Shown one piece after another: positions 1,084 through 26,324 of a stretch of 64,000 nucleotides of DNA; the first letter of the stretch is position 1, and each line of letters opens with the position of its first letter. The stretch comes from Reinekea thalattae (GTDB taxonomy: Bacteria > Pseudomonadota > Gammaproteobacteria > Pseudomonadales > Natronospirillaceae), in contig NZ_VKAD01000002.1 of assembly GCF_008041945.1 (NCBI RefSeq), positions 62,001 to 126,000 on the forward strand, in the 5' to 3' direction. The notes beneath the pieces are model-generated. The model saw nothing but the letters and a program-made list of their open reading frames with translations, ran no database searches and was not told where the DNA came from. The translations under genes were made by a program, and so were the position numbers.

Positions 1084-3333
1084 ATGTCTGAACAAAGTGC
1101 TGATTTTACTGAATCACTATCGCTGAGTGAGTTTACCGAAAAAGCGTATCTGGATTACTCCATGTACGTCATCTTGGACCGAGCCTTGCCGCATGTGGGC
1201 GATGGTCTAAAGCCGGTACAGCGACGCATTATTTATGCGATGAGCGAGTTGGGTTTACGTAATTCGGCAAAGCATAAAAAGTCGGCGCGTACCGTCGGTG
1301 ATGTGCTTGGTAAATACCATCCGCATGGTGACAGTGCCTGTTATGAAGCCATGGTATTGATGGCTCAGCCGTTTTCCTATCGTTACCCAATGGTTGATGG
1401 CCAGGGTAACTGGGGCTCGCCAGACGATCCTAAATCGTTTGCTGCAATGCGATATACCGAATCTCGGCTGCATAAAAATGCGCAGCTGTTATTAGAAGAG
1501 TTGGGTCAAGGCACAGTCGACTGGGTGCCCAATTTTGATGGCAGTCTAAATGAACCAACGGTGTTGCCTGCGCGCCTGCCGCATGTGCTATTAAATGGCA
1601 CCACCGGTATTGCTGTCGGTATGGCGACCGACATTCCTCCGCATAATTTAAAAGAAGTTGCTGCCGCCTGTATTCATCTGATTGATCAGCCGGATGCTTC
1701 TGTTGCCGATCTGATGATGCATGTTCGTGGTCCAGATTATGCGACCGGTGCTGAATTAATCACGCCAAAAGCAGAGTTGCAAAAAGTCTATGAAACCGGC
1801 CGTGGCTCGGTTCGCTTGCGTGCTAAATACATGAAAGAAGGTAGCGATATCGTTATTACTGAGCTGCCTCACCAAGTTTCTGGCGCAAAAATACTTGAGC
1901 AAATTGCAGCTCAAATGCAGGCTAAGAAGCTGCCGATGGTTGCGGATTTGCGTGACGAGTCAGACCATGAAAATCCGACTCGCTTGGTCATTGAGCCGCG
2001 CAGCAATCGCGTCGATGCCGAATCCTTAATGAACCACCTGTTTGCCACCACCGACCTTGAAAAAACCGCTCGGGTAAACCTCAACGTTATCGGTATTGAT
2101 GGCAGCCCGAAAGTAAAATCCTTGGCTGACATTTTAACTGAGTGGTTGGTCTTTAGAACAGAAACGGTACGTCGCCGATTACAGCATCGCCTAGATAAGG
2201 TGAATGCTCGACTGCATATTTTAGATGGCTTATTGATTGCCTATCTGAACATCGATGAAGTGATCGAGATTATTCGTACCGAGGACGAACCTAAAGTCGA
2301 GCTAATGTCTCGTTTTGGTCTGACCGATATTCAAGCAGAATCGATTTTAGAAATTAAATTACGTCAGCTTGCTAAGCTAGAAGAAATTAAAATTCGTGGC
2401 GAGCAAGATGATTTATCTGCCGAGCGCGATAAGTTAGAAAAAATTCTCGCCTCTAAAGCTCGAATGAAGACATTGATTAAAAAAGAAATTTTGGCCGATG
2501 CCGAAACCTATGGCGATGACCGTCGTACAGCGCTGGTTAGTCGTAGTGAAGCTACTGCCTTTAGTGAGTCGGATATTCTACCTTCTGAAGCAGTCAGCGT
2601 TATTTTGTCGGAGCGAGGTTGGATTCGCTCAGCCAAAGGCCACGAAATCGACCCCGTAGGTTTGAGCTATAAGTCGGGTGATGGTTTTGCCTATATGGCG
2701 AAAGGTAAGAGCAATGAAGCCACCGTTCTAATTGATTCCACTGGCCGTTCTTACTCGCTGGCAACCCACACCTTGCCATCGGCTCGAGGCCAAGGTGAGC
2801 CTTTAACAACTCGGTTAAATTTACAGCCAGCATCAACTATTAAGGGTTTGTTGTTGGGCCAAGCTGAAGAAAAATATTTGCTTTGCTCCGATGCTGGCTA
2901 TGGCTTTGTTGCCAAGCTCTCAGACATGGTGAGTAAAAATAAAGCCGGTAAAGCACTGCTTAACCTACCTAAAAATGCACAGGTGTTATCGCCTGAGCCG
3001 GTAGCGCAGTTTGCCACCGATTACTTAGCTGCCGTGACCAATGAAGGTCGCTTATTGGTCTTCCCATTGCGAGATTTACCAGAGCTGGCCAAAGGCAAAG
3101 GCAATAAAATTATCAATATTCCAGCGTCGAGAGCCTCAAATGGCGAGGAGCTTATGGTTTCTGTTGCTGTGTTAGGTGCGCAAGAAACTCTGTTGGTTTA
3201 TTCCGGTAAGCGTAAGTTGAAATTAACCGGTGCTGATTTAGAGCATTATCAAGGAGAGCGAGGTCGACGTGGTAACAAGTTGCCTCGTGGTTTCCAAAAC
3301 GTATCTGGCTTAGGGGTAGAACGAAAGTCATAG
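1084..3333 (+). CDS. parC: DNA topoisomerase IV subunit A
   Basis: ParC is the DNA breakage-reunion subunit that, with ParE, decatenates daughter chromosomes. The 749 residues match the usual length. The winged-helix segment [15 protein letters not shown] leads to the active-site tyrosine in [10 protein letters not shown] (Tyr124). Ser84 and Glu88, equivalent to E. coli ParC Ser80 and Glu84, keep the quinolone-sensitive residues, so no classical resistance substitution is seen there. The C-terminal third carries beta-pinwheel repeats and ends in a basic [13 protein letters not shown] stretch that corresponds to the GyrA-box-like region. The start ATG at 1084 gives the expected N terminus. No parE is in the window. 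Confidence 0.97.
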
Positions 3334-3405
3334 GGCCGTAGGCTAGCTGTTTAATAGCTTTCCTATATCAATCTAAACCTGAATTATTTTGTAGGCGTTT
3401 TTTCA

Positions 3406-5517
3406 GTGAATGCTCGTCAACTGCTGTTTGTTTTAGTTTTTATAGCGTTACTATTGTTGGCCGGTTCGGTTACTTTGGGCGTAAAACAAAGTCGAGTTTT
3501 TGCTCAGACTAACGAACTTATTGTCGCCTATGAATCGCTGATGCAATGGCAGAAGCATGCCGAACAGCGGCCAGCTAAAGAATCGGTATTAAATCGCTAT
3601 GCACAGCAAATTATTAATAACTTGCCTGAGCTAGTCGGCAATACGGATCAGCCAGTTAGTGAACTAACACAGTACTTGTTCGACTATAGTGCAAGCCCTA
3701 ATCAGCCAGCATCGGTTGATGTTTTTCAATCTGATATTCTTGAGTCAGCGATTCTCTGGGAATTGCTCGACTGCCATCAACAGCAAACTCGGCTGGCTCA
3801 TCTAGCAAACTATATCAGCGTTGGACTGGGCTTTACGCTATTAGGTTTGGGTCTTAACGCCTACTTTATGGGGCGTCGCTCAAAGGATTATCGCTTAGCG
3901 CCTTTTTTGGAAGACAACCCCAATCCTGTTTTCGGTTTGAACTTTAACGGTAAAATCATCTACAGCAATGTTGCCGCCAATAAGGCGCTACAGCAATTAT
4001 TGCCCTACTCAGACGATGTCTCCATGTTGTTGCCTGACGACTATGGCATGCTGCTTAATAAACTGAAATCCGAACAGCAAACCACGGCAGTGTGGAATCG
4101 TGAGCTGAAAGATCGGCTGTATAAGTTTAGCGTTCACCTGATGCCTAATTATGGTCGTATTCATATTTATGGTGAAGACGTTACCGAACAAGAAAAAATC
4201 CGTGCTCATAATCATTTCTTAGCGTTTCATGACCCGATTTGCGAATTGGCGAATCGACAAAAATACGAACAGTTGGTGAATGATCTGCACGATGAGTCGC
4301 TTGATATTACATTGGTCATGACTCGCGTAATCGGCACCTCGGCCTTGTTATCTAACCAAGGCTTATTGGTTGTTGATCAATTTGTTAAAGATTTGTCTGC
4401 ACGTTTAACCAGAGCATATCGCGCAGTCGACAGCTTTGGTGAGCGTCGCGCTGAAGTAATCCGATTTGATAACAGCCTTTTTGGCTGTCTTTACTTTGGT
4501 CGCTTAACAGAACGCCAATGCCGCTACTTGACTAGCCTGCTTGAGCAATGCGGTGAAGCTCCCTATGTGTCAGGTAATAGAGAACATTACTTCAAGATTA
4601 AAAGCGGTGCGGTCTGTGAAAAATCCTCGCGCAGTGCTCAGTTTGTCATGCAAAAAGCCAACATCGCATTAGATTCACTACGTGATCCTGAACAAAGTTT
4701 TCTGCTGTTTGATGAATCGATTGAAGCTGAAATGCGAGAGTCTGAGCGTGTTCATAATGCCCTCAGGCATGCCGTGCAATTGGATGAGCTAGCCATGGTT
4801 TATCAGCCGCAGCAAGATTTAAGAACCGGCTCGTTGGTTGGCTTTGAAGCCTTAATGCGTTGGAATAACCATGGCAAAAATGTACCGCCAGATGTCTTTA
4901 TTCCTTTGGCCGAAAAAACCGGCTTAATTCATGGCATTGGTAATTGGGCAATGCGTGAAGTTTTAAGGCAAAGCATTGACTGGCAAAACCAGCCGGCAAT
5001 TAAACTTAAGCAAATTGCCTTTAATGTCTCGGCGCAAGAATTTAGCCGACAAGACTTTATTGAGTCTATCGAGGTCGCACTTGCTGACTACCCTGCAACG
5101 CCGGATACCATTCAAATCGAGTTAACCGAAAGCCTGTTAATCGATGATGAACAGGCGGCGATCGAGAAGTTACACACCTTGAAAGAACTTGGCTTTACCG
5201 TTGCTATTGATGATTTCGGTACGGGTTATTCTTCATTTAGTTACTTGTCTCGCTTCCCTATCGATAAGTTAAAAATTGATCGTTCTTTTATTACCAATAT
5301 GGCCAATGGCGAGCGCGATATCGCAATTGTGGCGGCAATGATCAATGTAGCGCATCGACTAGGTATTGGTGTTATCGCAGAAGGAGTGGAAACTCTGGAA
5401 CAACGAGATATTCTATTGAGTATGGAATGCGACCAAATACAGGGTTTTTTATTTGGCAAGCCGATGAATTCCGTGGATGCAACACTATTCTGTGTTAATG
5501 AAGGGGTAAGCCAATGA
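3406..5517 (+). CDS. Membrane-bound PAS / degenerate GGDEF / EAL protein, probable c-di-GMP phosphodiesterase
   Basis: A 703-residue signalling protein. It starts at GTG with a short purine-rich GTAGG upstream. A membrane segment lies at about residues 5-25, then a roughly 110-residue extracytoplasmic stretch, a second membrane segment near 138-155, and a PAS-like part at about 165-260. The GGDEF domain at about 270-440 is degenerate: residues 353-359 read RFDNSLF where active enzymes have RxGGDEF, so cyclase activity is not expected. The EAL domain at about 455-695 looks active: FEALMRW (Glu481), FNVSAQEF, IELTES, DDFGTGYSS, KIDRSF, EGVE and QGFLFGKP are all kept. The last four bases (ATGA) overlap the start of the ComFB gene, so the two are probably translationally coupled. 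Hydrolysis of c-di-GMP to pGpG is inferred from the family. Confidence 0.9.
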   Translation: MNARQLLFVLVFIALLLLAGSVTLGVKQSRVFAQTNELIVAYESLMQWQKHAEQRPAKESVLNRYAQQIINNLPELVGNTDQPVSELTQYLFDYSASPNQPASVDVFQSDILESAILWELLDCHQQQTRLAHLANYISVGLGFTLLGLGLNAYFMGRRSKDYRLAPFLEDNPNPVFGLNFNGKIIYSNVAANKALQQLLPYSDDVSMLLPDDYGMLLNKLKSEQQTTAVWNRELKDRLYKFSVHLMPNYGRIHIYGEDVTEQEKIRAHNHFLAFHDPICELANRQKYEQLVNDLHDESLDITLVMTRVIGTSALLSNQGLLVVDQFVKDLSARLTRAYRAVDSFGERRAEVIRFDNSLFGCLYFGRLTERQCRYLTSLLEQCGEAPYVSGNREHYFKIKSGAVCEKSSRSAQFVMQKANIALDSLRDPEQSFLLFDESIEAEMRESERVHNALRHAVQLDELAMVYQPQQDLRTGSLVGFEALMRWNNHGKNVPPDVFIPLAEKTGLIHGIGNWAMREVLRQSIDWQNQPAIKLKQIAFNVSAQEFSRQDFIESIEVALADYPATPDTIQIELTESLLIDDEQAAIEKLHTLKELGFTVAIDDFGTGYSSFSYLSRFPIDKLKIDRSFITNMANGERDIAIVAAMINVAHRLGIGVIAEGVETLEQRDILLSMECDQIQGFLFGKPMNSVDATLFCVNEGVSQ

Positions 5518-23755: not shown

Positions 23756-24529
23756 TTATCCGTAAACTAATGCCTGTAGTAGCAAGCCAGTAAATAAGGC
23801 CAAGCTCATCGAAAATAAAGAGCCTAAAATAACGTACTCGGTGAACTTCCTATCGTGAGCCTCTCGCAAATCGCCCATTCTAAAAATAGATTTTGCTGCC
23901 AAGATAAAGCCGACGGCTTTAAATTCATCGTTTAGTACAAAGGTTAATACCAGCAGTCGCTCTAGGTAGCCGATGTATTGCCCAGCCTGAGGTAGCGAGT
24001 CTCGATTCTCTTTTGATGTTTGTTGTTCAATGGCTAACGTCCACTGCGAGAGTAACTGGCTAACCACAACCGCGCTGGGTTTCAGCATTAGCAAATAGCC
24101 AAGGCACAGCGCCCAGCCATTCGACCAATTTAATGTACTGAGTAAGATTTGAATTTGTGGCCCAGCGCCAGGCAATAAAAACAGCCAAAGTACGACCAAA
24201 CTTAATAGGTGCAGCGCTTGGTCCAATAAAAACCAAATCAGCGTTTTGCCCAGTAGCAGTTTTAAGTAATCAATCGCGCCGTGAATTAGGCTAAAAAGCA
24301 GCCCTGTAACGAGCGCAAGCGATAGGTTGAGCGTTGCCGTCGTTGCCAGTATTAAGGCAACAATACCGCCATGCAGCAAAGCATGTAGATAAAAATAGCT
24401 AGAACGAATTTTATGCTGCTGTTTAGATTGAGCCCAATGGTCCGGTTGCAAAAAGAAATCACCGATCAAGTGACCAAGCAATAACAACCAAAGTAGCGAA
24501 ATACCGTCCAGTGTTGCCAGCATAGCCAA
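23756..24529 (-). CDS. DUF3307 family membrane protein (SatE-like)
   Basis: A 257-residue inner-membrane protein with about six to seven helices. The LLGHLIGDFFLQPDHWAQSK start and the C-terminal GFILAAKSIFRMGDL and FTEYVILGSLFS segments are typical of DUF3307. In streptococci a DUF3307-type gene sits in the acid-tolerance satCDE cluster beside satD, and the same pairing is seen here with satD 37 bases upstream on the same strand. The biochemical role is unknown. It ends about 90 bases from the convergent DUF6436-like gene. Confidence 0.82.
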   Translation of the reverse strand: MAMLATLDGISLLWLLLLGHLIGDFFLQPDHWAQSKQQHKIRSSYFYLHALLHGGIVALILATTATLNLSLALVTGLLFSLIHGAIDYLKLLLGKTLIWFLLDQALHLLSLVVLWLFLLPGAGPQIQILLSTLNWSNGWALCLGYLLMLKPSAVVVSQLLSQWTLAIEQQTSKENRDSLPQAGQYIGYLERLLVLTFVLNDEFKAVGFILAAKSIFRMGDLREAHDRKFTEYVILGSLFSMSLALFTGLLLQALVYG

Positions 24530-24566: not shown

Positions 24567-25217
24567 TTATGAATCAATGGCTGCAAGCTTATCAGCAATA
24601 ACCGCTTCATACAGCGCTAGTGTTTCAATAATGATGTCGGCATTGGCGCGCTGTAGCCGCGAGGCTAGGGAGCGTCGGTTGATCGCTGTTTTTTCTGCCA
24701 GCAGTTGTTGGGTAAGTGCCGGGTAAAGTAAGCGCGGATACAACACCTCTGCTTGCTTATGGCTTAGTGCGGTCAAGACAAAATCTAAATACTGGATAAG
24801 CAATTGATGGCTGGGGTTGATCTGCGCGCGGCTTGAACAGTTAACGGTTAACCGCTGCTCGTCCATCGCTTTTAAGGCTCGGCCCGATAACACAAAGGCT
24901 TCACCCTTGGCGGTTTTTCGCAGCTCAGGCTCTAGTTGATTAAAGTGGCCAATACCAATCGCCACCCGTGCATCGGAGCGCTTAACGCATTGCATAAGGG
25001 CTAGGCGTAACAGTACGGCGATGCGCAAACTGAATTGTGGCTGTGCAATAAAGACTTGGAACTCATCACCACGATAAATATCGCCCTGAACAGCAAACTC
25101 TTGGTTTAGAGTCAGCATCGATTGCTCTAACTGTACAAGGCAGCTGCGATGATCGGTATCGGACAAGCCGGTAGAGTTAATGATGTCGCCAGTGACGACA
25201 GCGCCGATGCTGACCAT
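24567..25217 (-). CDS. SatD family protein
   Basis: A 216-residue soluble protein. The VVTGDIINST start, YRGDEFQVF and ARVAIGIGHF segments match the SatD family, whose core has a nucleotide-cyclase-like look. The C-terminal 45 residues (LLAEKTAINRRSLASRLQRA) form a probable helix-turn-helix. It would therefore combine a ligand-sensing domain with DNA binding. It is the first gene of a two-gene unit with the DUF3307 gene. A striking repeated operator-like array lies 30-80 bases upstream and fits autoregulation, which is inference. Confidence 0.8.
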   Translation of the reverse strand: MVSIGAVVTGDIINSTGLSDTDHRSCLVQLEQSMLTLNQEFAVQGDIYRGDEFQVFIAQPQFSLRIAVLLRLALMQCVKRSDARVAIGIGHFNQLEPELRKTAKGEAFVLSGRALKAMDEQRLTVNCSSRAQINPSHQLLIQYLDFVLTALSHKQAEVLYPRLLYPALTQQLLAEKTAINRRSLASRLQRANADIIIETLALYEAVIADKLAAIDS

Positions 25218-25246
25218 AGTCTATGCCTTAGAAGTGAGATCGCTTA

Positions 25247-25296
25247 TTGGTCATACTTTAGTGGCCAAAGTATATTTGGTCAATAATTCGTGGCCA
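25247..25296. promoter_or_regulatory. Tandem TTGGTCA-N7-GTGGCCA operator-like array before satD
   Basis: TTGGTCA (25247-25253), seven bases, GTGGCCA (25261-25267) is repeated as TTGGTCA (25276-25282), seven bases, GTGGCCA (25290-25296). The period is exactly 29 bases and successive TGGYCA cores are 14, 15 and 14 bases apart. An inverted repeat ATACTTT/AAAGTAT is centred on the first GTGGCCA. This spacing fits dimers bound side by side; satD (minus) and the acyltransferase gene (plus) could both be controlled. Confidence 0.6.
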
Positions 25297-25355: not shown

Positions 25356-26324
25356 ATGTTAACCGATTTAATTATGCAGCGTTCCCAACTACTCGATTTA
25401 CTCAGAATCTTCGCCATCTTGCTGGTGTTTATTGCTCATTTTGGCCAATTGTTTAATCACAATTTAGGTGACTTTTTTGGCATTAAAAACTTTTATTACG
25501 TCAGTTTAGGTGGCGTTGGCGTGACTCTCTTTTTGCTGCTGTCAGGTTTACTCTTAGGTCTAACCGACGGCAATAAAAAGCGCGGTTACTTTGCTTTTAT
25601 AGGCAAAAAGCTAAAGCGCATTTATCCGCTTTACTGGATCTGCTTGCCTTTATCTTTACTTGGTTATGTACTCGGCAGTTATGTAGCGGGAGATGGCTTG
25701 CCCGATTTGGCTCCCAATGGTCTGCTGGTGGACCTGTTCGGCACATTAACGGGCTTTTATGCTTGGCTGAGTTTGTGGGGGGGGCCCTATAATGCGCCCA
25801 GCTGGTTTATTGGCCTTATTATTAGTTTGTACGCCGTAGGCCCATTACTTTTGTTTGGCCTTAAGCGCTTCCCTTATATAGTGCTGCTTATTTTGTTGCT
25901 TATTAGTGTGCTATCGCGTTGGTATGTTGGCCAAGAAGGCATTCCATTGGTATCGAATAATCTCTATGACGAAGCCAAAGGCTGGGCCTATCGTCAATTT
26001 GGTTTTATGCCTGGTCGACCAACAGACTGGTTCCCGCTGTGTCGAATATTTGAGTTTGGGTTTGGTATTTATCTTGGCTTAGTTGTGCCAAAACGAGTTT
26101 GGTTTAGCGTTAATCTGCCGGGGCAGAAAATCAGCAGCTATTTAAGTGATTTGGCATTCCCTCTTTTTTTATTGCATCTTCCGTGGTTGTTTTTTGTCGA
26201 GGTATTGATCGATAAAGGTATGCCAACTTCCGTAAGCATAGCGGTGTTTATGTTGCTGTTGGTCGTGCTCGCTCAAGGCGTGACCAAGTTGGAAAGCATG
26301 TTGCTGGCGAAGCTAGGTTATTGA
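25356..26324 (+). CDS. Acyltransferase 3 family membrane protein
   Basis: A 322-residue integral membrane protein with about ten helices. The LDLLRIFAILLVFIAHFGQL segment carries the conserved arginine and histidine of the acyltransferase-3 (OafB/NodX type) family, and FIGKKLKRIYPLYWI is the second family motif. Such enzymes transfer acetyl or other acyl groups to cell-surface sugars or peptides. No SGNH domain is fused. The start is uncertain: ATG at 25356 or 25374, neither with a good Shine-Dalgarno sequence. No polysaccharide genes are adjacent, so the acceptor is unknown. Confidence 0.85.
   Translation: MLTDLIMQRSQLLDLLRIFAILLVFIAHFGQLFNHNLGDFFGIKNFYYVSLGGVGVTLFLLLSGLLLGLTDGNKKRGYFAFIGKKLKRIYPLYWICLPLSLLGYVLGSYVAGDGLPDLAPNGLLVDLFGTLTGFYAWLSLWGGPYNAPSWFIGLIISLYAVGPLLLFGLKRFPYIVLLILLLISVLSRWYVGQEGIPLVSNNLYDEAKGWAYRQFGFMPGRPTDWFPLCRIFEFGFGIYLGLVVPKRVWFSVNLPGQKISSYLSDLAFPLFLLHLPWLFFVEVLIDKGMPTSVSIAVFMLLLVVLAQGVTKLESMLLAKLGY

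Follow-up and report, generated by a model that had tools for sequence, protein, structure and literature searches.

The intergenic region studied here raises the question of which protein reads a short tandem repeat situated between satD and a divergent acyltransferase gene in Reinekea thalattae, and which gene the repeat serves. The original prediction, made on the window (the whole analysed stretch of 64,000 nucleotides), proposed that satD is autoregulated through this repeat and named the acyltransferase gene as a possible co-target. We believe that the comparison of many loci strongly supports the autoregulation of satD, since an array with a period of 28-29 bp precedes most of the satD genes tested, and its letters change together with the SatD recognition helix. 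The relevant features of the window are as follows.

23756..24529, minus strand: gene of a DUF3307 membrane protein, downstream of satD (PF11750, E 8e-23)
24567..25217, minus strand: satD, 216 aa, predicted cyclase/GGDEF-like domain and C-terminal helix-turn-helix (Pfam PF16264, AlphaFold2, Foldseek against PDB)
24828..25217, minus strand: predicted cyclase-like domain of SatD, about residues 1-130 (alignment A4, AlphaFold2 model, Foldseek against PDB)
24642..24725, minus strand: predicted SatD helix-turn-helix at about residues 165-192, with its recognition helix at about 181-190 (secondary structure of the model)
25247..25268, no strand assigned: satD-proximal candidate operator dyad, TTGGTCA-N8-TGGCCAA, centred 40.5 bp before the satD start codon
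25276..25297, no strand assigned: satD-distal candidate operator dyad, TTGGTCA-N8-TGGCCAT, centred 69.5 bp before the start codon, one 29-bp period from the proximal dyad
25269..25296, minus strand: promoter-like site for satD, TGGCCA-16-TATACT (consensus scan only), overlapping the dyad array
25283-25255, minus strand: second promoter candidate for satD, TTGACC-17-TAAAGT (consensus scan only), overlapping the dyad array

The repeat was described as a pair of TTGGTCA-N7-GTGGCCA units, and both copies are indeed exact (25247-25267 and 25276-25296, plus strand) and 29 bp apart. The four TGGYCA cores start at 25248, 25262, 25277 and 25291 with the predicted spacings of 14, 15 and 14, and the distance of 30 bp to the satD ATG (25217, minus strand) is also as described. 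Four cores in the 138-bp intergenic stretch are to be compared with 0.19 expected, and 100 dinucleotide shuffles of the window gave no match to the complete unit. The genome search suggested along with the prediction was run: the exact matches in the 2.94-Mb genome are the window pair only, and none was found with one mismatch; allowing at most two mismatches gives 23 matches (the window pair included) vs. 35 for a reversed control pattern. A more accurate description of the unit is that of an inverted repeat, TTGGTCA-N8-TGGCCAA, with one mismatch in copy 1 and a terminal T in copy 2 (TTGGTCA-N8-TGGCCAT). The half-site geometry of the proximal dyad, 5-N8-5, is that of the satD arrays in Alteromonas, Proteus and Chitinophagaceae.

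The upstream regions of satD were compared across families, as had been proposed. The single window SatD, used as a query of genome contigs, gave no relatives; the alignment of its subfamily gave 33 loci, mostly from named organisms, and streptococcal satD lay outside the locus sample. The original prediction relied on conservation of the motif at other satD genes: the literal letters are not common to them, but the architecture is kept, namely, inverted-repeat dyads recurring every 28-29 bp (rarely 30). Such arrays occur in hosts as different as Gammaproteobacteria, Alphaproteobacteria, Bacteroidota and haloarchaea, and also on small plasmids and viral contigs. A centre-to-centre distance of 28 or 29 bp separates the dyads in Alteromonas, Proteus, Vibrio, Pseudoalteromonas, Gynuella, the canonical satD of same-family genomes, Sphingomonas, Chitinophagaceae and haloarchaeal plasmids. 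The dyad letters depend on the lineage (TCACA/TGTGA, TTCGT/ACGAA, AAACC/GGTTT, TAGC/GCTA and, in the window, TGGYCA). For instance, 28-bp arrays consist of AATCACA-N8-TGTGATT in Alteromonas and of GTTAC-N8-GTAAC in Proteus; Gynuella has 29-bp arrays, as do Chitinophagaceae (two to four copies of TTCGT-N8-ACGAA). A CRP reading of the Alteromonas dyads is rejected because of half-site orientation and spacing. The satD genes of same-family genomes are preceded by the palindrome TAAACC-N5-GGTTTA, which recurs after 28 or 29 bp, with up to four copies at exactly 29. On this comparison, the window repeat is one lineage's version of a 28-29-bp dyad array preceding satD in bacteria and archaea.

The archaeal cases are the plasmids of Haloplanus (L082) and Halorientalis (L080), which carry GTTCG-N10-CGAAC dyads with a 29-bp period; the Haloplanus plasmid has two pairs of them (2847-2972), each at this distance. 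Haloarchaeal satD has the operator architecture of the bacterial loci in a different domain of life. A Cytophagaceae MAG (L053) contains five TAGC-N8-GCTA dyads in a 29-bp register over 232 bp; they lie from 291 to 43 bp upstream of satD with spacings of 29, 87, 29 and 87 bp.

The period was assessed by the best self-lag among 12-69, a lag of 28-30 with a score of at least 11 being counted as positive. The strongest self-lag fell at 28-30 in 33/44 satD upstream regions (non-redundant at 80% identity), whereas starts of other genes from these loci gave 0/87 (Fisher p about 7e-22) and shuffles 2/440. When the later loci were added, 37/53 regions were positive after 80% clustering (p 1.5e-21) and 18/29 after 50% protein clustering (p 6e-14), in both cases vs. 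the same controls. The 28-29-bp rule was first noticed in L022-L037 and then satisfied by loci fetched afterwards: among the nine fetched last, such arrays are found in L084, L085, L088, L090, L091 and L092 and in a weaker form in L087 and L089. For the window itself the plain self-lag is modest, its score of 11 being reached at some lag in 49/440 shuffles. Arrays are visible by eye in L025, L026 and L034 despite failure of the automatic test, while no clear array was found upstream of satD in L023, L031, L035, L036 and L059. The failures at L080 and L078 concern doubtful satD start codons. The start appears to be set too far upstream in both L078 (2890) and L080 (2779), and the array sequence falls inside the N terminus as annotated (L078) or as given by the longest ORF (L080). 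The automatic dyad finder chose wrong registers in A+T-rich loci; therefore, the registers were re-read with explicit patterns. Registers and operator arms were curated by eye, and this evidence is good, although not blind.

If the array is bound by the product of satD, its sites should be rare elsewhere and should follow the DNA-binding part of this protein. In the genomes scanned the dyad sites are private to satD: all three WAAACC-N5-GGTTTW sites of a 4.3-Mb genome (G012) lie in the satD array, and the other genomes scanned give at most scattered single matches. SatD proteins with similar helix-turn-helices tend to have similar operators, also when the N-terminal domain is controlled (partial r 0.43, n=37), and the same comparison with one sequence per lineage gives a partial Mantel r of 0.29 (p 0.001, n=19), a test that removes phylogeny only partly, because operator and helix-turn-helix are both inherited. 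The correlation with the N-terminal domain, when the helix-turn-helix is controlled, is -0.12. At the level of sequence comparison, the operator letters track the C-terminal helix-turn-helix of SatD and not its N-terminal domain. Certain pairings of recognition helix and operator recur: SKST with TTCG, QPT with TAGC, VYK with ACC, and RSN with TCAC or TAAC. Haloarchaeal SatD joins an N domain of the canonical type to an SKST recognition helix, which, like its GTTCG operator, is of the kind seen in Chitinophagaceae. Among the later loci, L092 combines an SQPT recognition helix with TAGC sites, as in earlier loci, and L090 combines VHTVYK with GACCC sites. Such pairs offer a natural specificity table of recognition-helix residues against half-sites.

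The protein fits this role as far as its predicted structure goes. The Pfam profile PF16264 matches the window SatD with E 8.2e-6 and 26 bits, just below the gathering score of 29 (profile positions 4-200 of 211), and the conserved D11 and GD(E)F are common to it and to canonical members. The AlphaFold2 model (pLDDT 87.7) has a beta-alpha-beta-beta-alpha-beta domain followed by a C-terminal helix-turn-helix; the latter had been suspected in the original prediction and agrees with the helices 170-177 and 181-190, which take helix-turn-helix positions. Some SatD homologues give weak matches to HTH/sigma-70 region 4 profiles. The best PDB matches of the model (Foldseek) are a GGDEF domain and class III adenylyl and guanylyl cyclases, and both these matches and the topology of the model display the palm fold of the class III nucleotidyl cyclase/GGDEF superfamily. 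For the structures 4wp9, 1ybu and 4zmm, E ranges from 2e-4 to 1e-3 and TM-scores from 0.35 to 0.43 over the whole query; they share with SatD the palm and the acidic residues that close strand 1 and lie in the turn between strands 2 and 3. Alignment A4 of the subfamily shows no variation at D11 and R49-G50-D51. Judging by the predicted fold, these residues occupy the place where members of this superfamily bind metal, with D11 and D51 at the expected acidic positions (strand 1 and the strand 2-3 turn); their metal-binding role in SatD is putative. SatD differs from the cyclases and GGDEF domains in having the attached helix-turn-helix, and its catalysis is putative.

We consider it highly probable that the array is an autoregulatory operator from which SatD dimers repress the satD-DUF3307 operon, the cyclase/GGDEF-like domain probably gating the repression. 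Each inverted-repeat dyad would be bound by a SatD dimer by means of the C-terminal helix-turn-helix; where at least two dyads follow each other at 28-29 bp, the dimers would sit side by side, perhaps cooperatively, and cover the satD promoter. The gating would probably involve binding or turnover of a nucleotide or second messenger. An autorepressor is expected to contain a DNA-binding domain, which is present here as the predicted helix-turn-helix, and to have specific sites that are confined to its own promoter, as is found in the genomes scanned. Taken together, the comparisons strongly suggest that SatD is a DNA-binding switch over its own two-gene unit. The conservation of spacing under changing sequence also poses a structural question, namely, how neighbouring SatD dimers pack at 28-29 bp.

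A reading in which SatD activates the operon from the array is unlikely. The array centre lies at about -100 to -130 from the start codon in Alteromonas and Proteus (start-codon assignments being uncertain), and such positions far upstream in several loci leave room for activation. On the other hand, the window dyads overlap promoter-like hexamers, and the nearest dyad abuts the start codon in same-family canonical, Sphingomonas and haloarchaeal loci, as occlusion predicts. We find it quite improbable that another host-encoded regulator binds the array and controls satD, with the SatD helix-turn-helix acting elsewhere. Binding by SatD is so far putative, and the TCACA/TGTGA half-sites of Alteromonas are superficially CRP-like; however, in TCACA-N8-TGTGA the half-sites stand in the opposite order to those of a CRP site, the sites are absent elsewhere in the scanned genomes, and their letters vary with the recognition helix of SatD itself. 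Moreover, the same architecture occurs in bacteria, archaea and plasmids moving between hosts. The array reader must travel with the module, because the module moves on small plasmids, and SatD is the member of the pair with a predicted DNA-binding fold.

Control of the divergent acyltransferase gene (25356-26324), or of both genes, would agree with the position of the array 59-109 bp upstream of the acyltransferase start, and a weak plus-strand promoter match overlaps the array. We regard this as very unlikely and do not retain the acyltransferase gene as a co-target: the gene upstream of satD varies among loci, occurs on either strand and is often co-directional, so the array, which persists in the absence of a divergent gene, belongs to satD. 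Searches of the six other genomes of the genus found neither satD nor the acyltransferase gene, which also argues against this reading. A functionless chance tandem duplication is hardly credible. It would account for the presence of only two copies in the window and for the lack of conservation in the N7 between the half-sites; nevertheless, divergence is seen in the spacers but not in the half-sites, which are exact, and other satD loci have a matching period.

On the best reading, satD and DUF3307 travel together as a mobile two-gene module, and SatD serves this operon as its dedicated autorepressor. The linkage of satD to the downstream membrane-protein gene, present in the window, is found in nearly all loci, where a DUF3307-type ORF follows satD, often with a 4-nt overlap at the satD stop codon. 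DUF3307 itself is a membrane protein made up of helices only, in which H, D, E, R and K residues are invariant at many positions; in alignment A6, H20, H49, H83, D87, D103, Q104, H107, E190, R191, K213, R217 and E231 are invariant in predicted helices. These residues suggest an intramembrane metal site and, with the all-helical membrane character, make an intramembrane enzyme plausible; its model has no significant fold relative in PDB. A second, divergent SatD homologue (G015:C39, L031) adjoins a phospholipase D-like ORF, with no DUF3307 in the short contig.

Plasmid records with satD loci come from Vibrio, Pseudoalteromonas, Salinivibrio, Segatella, Enterobacter, Agrobacterium, Sphingomonas and two haloarchaea. 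The satD-DUF3307 pair is found on larger plasmids, on viral contigs and on plasmids of 3.8-4.4 kb in E. coli and Klebsiella that, apart from genes for replication and mobilisation, carry little more. It is nearly the sole cargo of E. coli pEC34A (L077, 3770 bp; pair at 1792-3481) and of a Klebsiella plasmid (L083, 4424 bp; pair at 221-1937), and its near-exclusive place on plasmids of this size suggests a benefit of a selfish, addiction or defence-like kind. The E. coli genomes searched yielded no near copy of the pEC34A module. Three IMG/VR contigs (predicted viral) carry satD, with 29-bp arrays at L084 and L085 and, at L086, repeats at lag 68 instead and none at 28-30; the phage records searched for satD gave no match.

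We tentatively propose, as a possibility that is rather doubtful at present, that the pair is a mobile addiction or defence-like module in which SatD both represses the operon and keeps in check a harmful, membrane enzyme-like DUF3307, which would be released if SatD or its nucleotide signal were lost. Transposon screens in S. pyogenes show satD to be essential, yet it is accessory, being present in 178/249 genomes (PMC11323703). This puzzle would be explained if DUF3307 is freed on SatD loss, and is compatible, by analogy, with restraint of a harmful partner in an antitoxin-like role; we note that an antitoxin-like regulator as the general account of an essential accessory satD would extend beyond the data of this analysis. 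A concrete hypothesis for the puzzle is nonetheless gained. SatD and DUF3307 are almost without described function, and the array makes SatD a testable transcription regulator with known candidate sites.

Several known systems resemble this one in part. SatD of the streptococcal sat (secretion and acid tolerance) system (PF16264) is akin to the window protein, a putative SatD family member that scores just below the gathering score; an operator array, DNA binding or a cyclase-like fold of streptococcal SatD was not found described in the literature searched. No paper on DNA binding by SatD was found, most literature matches to the name being unrelated acronyms. Regulators of the PucR/CdaR type, e.g., M. 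tuberculosis MabR (Rv2242), also combine a GGDEF-like and an all-alpha DNA-binding domain (PMC11617747), and the MabR structure 9f80 is among the Foldseek matches of the SatD model, although weakly (E 2.9e-3, TM about 0.3). They differ from SatD in domain order and size, MabR having an extra globin-like N-terminal domain, and none is known with DUF3307.

Autoregulated toxin-antitoxin operons share with satD-DUF3307 a small DNA-binding first gene, a partner overlapping it by about 4 nt, several operators, and a mobile, patchy distribution; here the partner is a polytopic membrane protein without a solved fold relative, and toxicity and neutralisation are hypothetical. The two-gene defence operons Panoptes (OptS-OptE) and Pycsar (PMC12657218, PMC11224242) likewise consist of a palm-fold nucleotide enzyme-like gene followed by an effector, which in Panoptes is transmembrane, as is DUF3307. 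SatD differs from them in its helix-turn-helix and in the proposed reading of an operator array. PADLOC profiles gave no match (E <= 1) for the window SatD or DUF3307, and a weak PycC match (E 0.0097) was obtained in one SatD homologue, L055.
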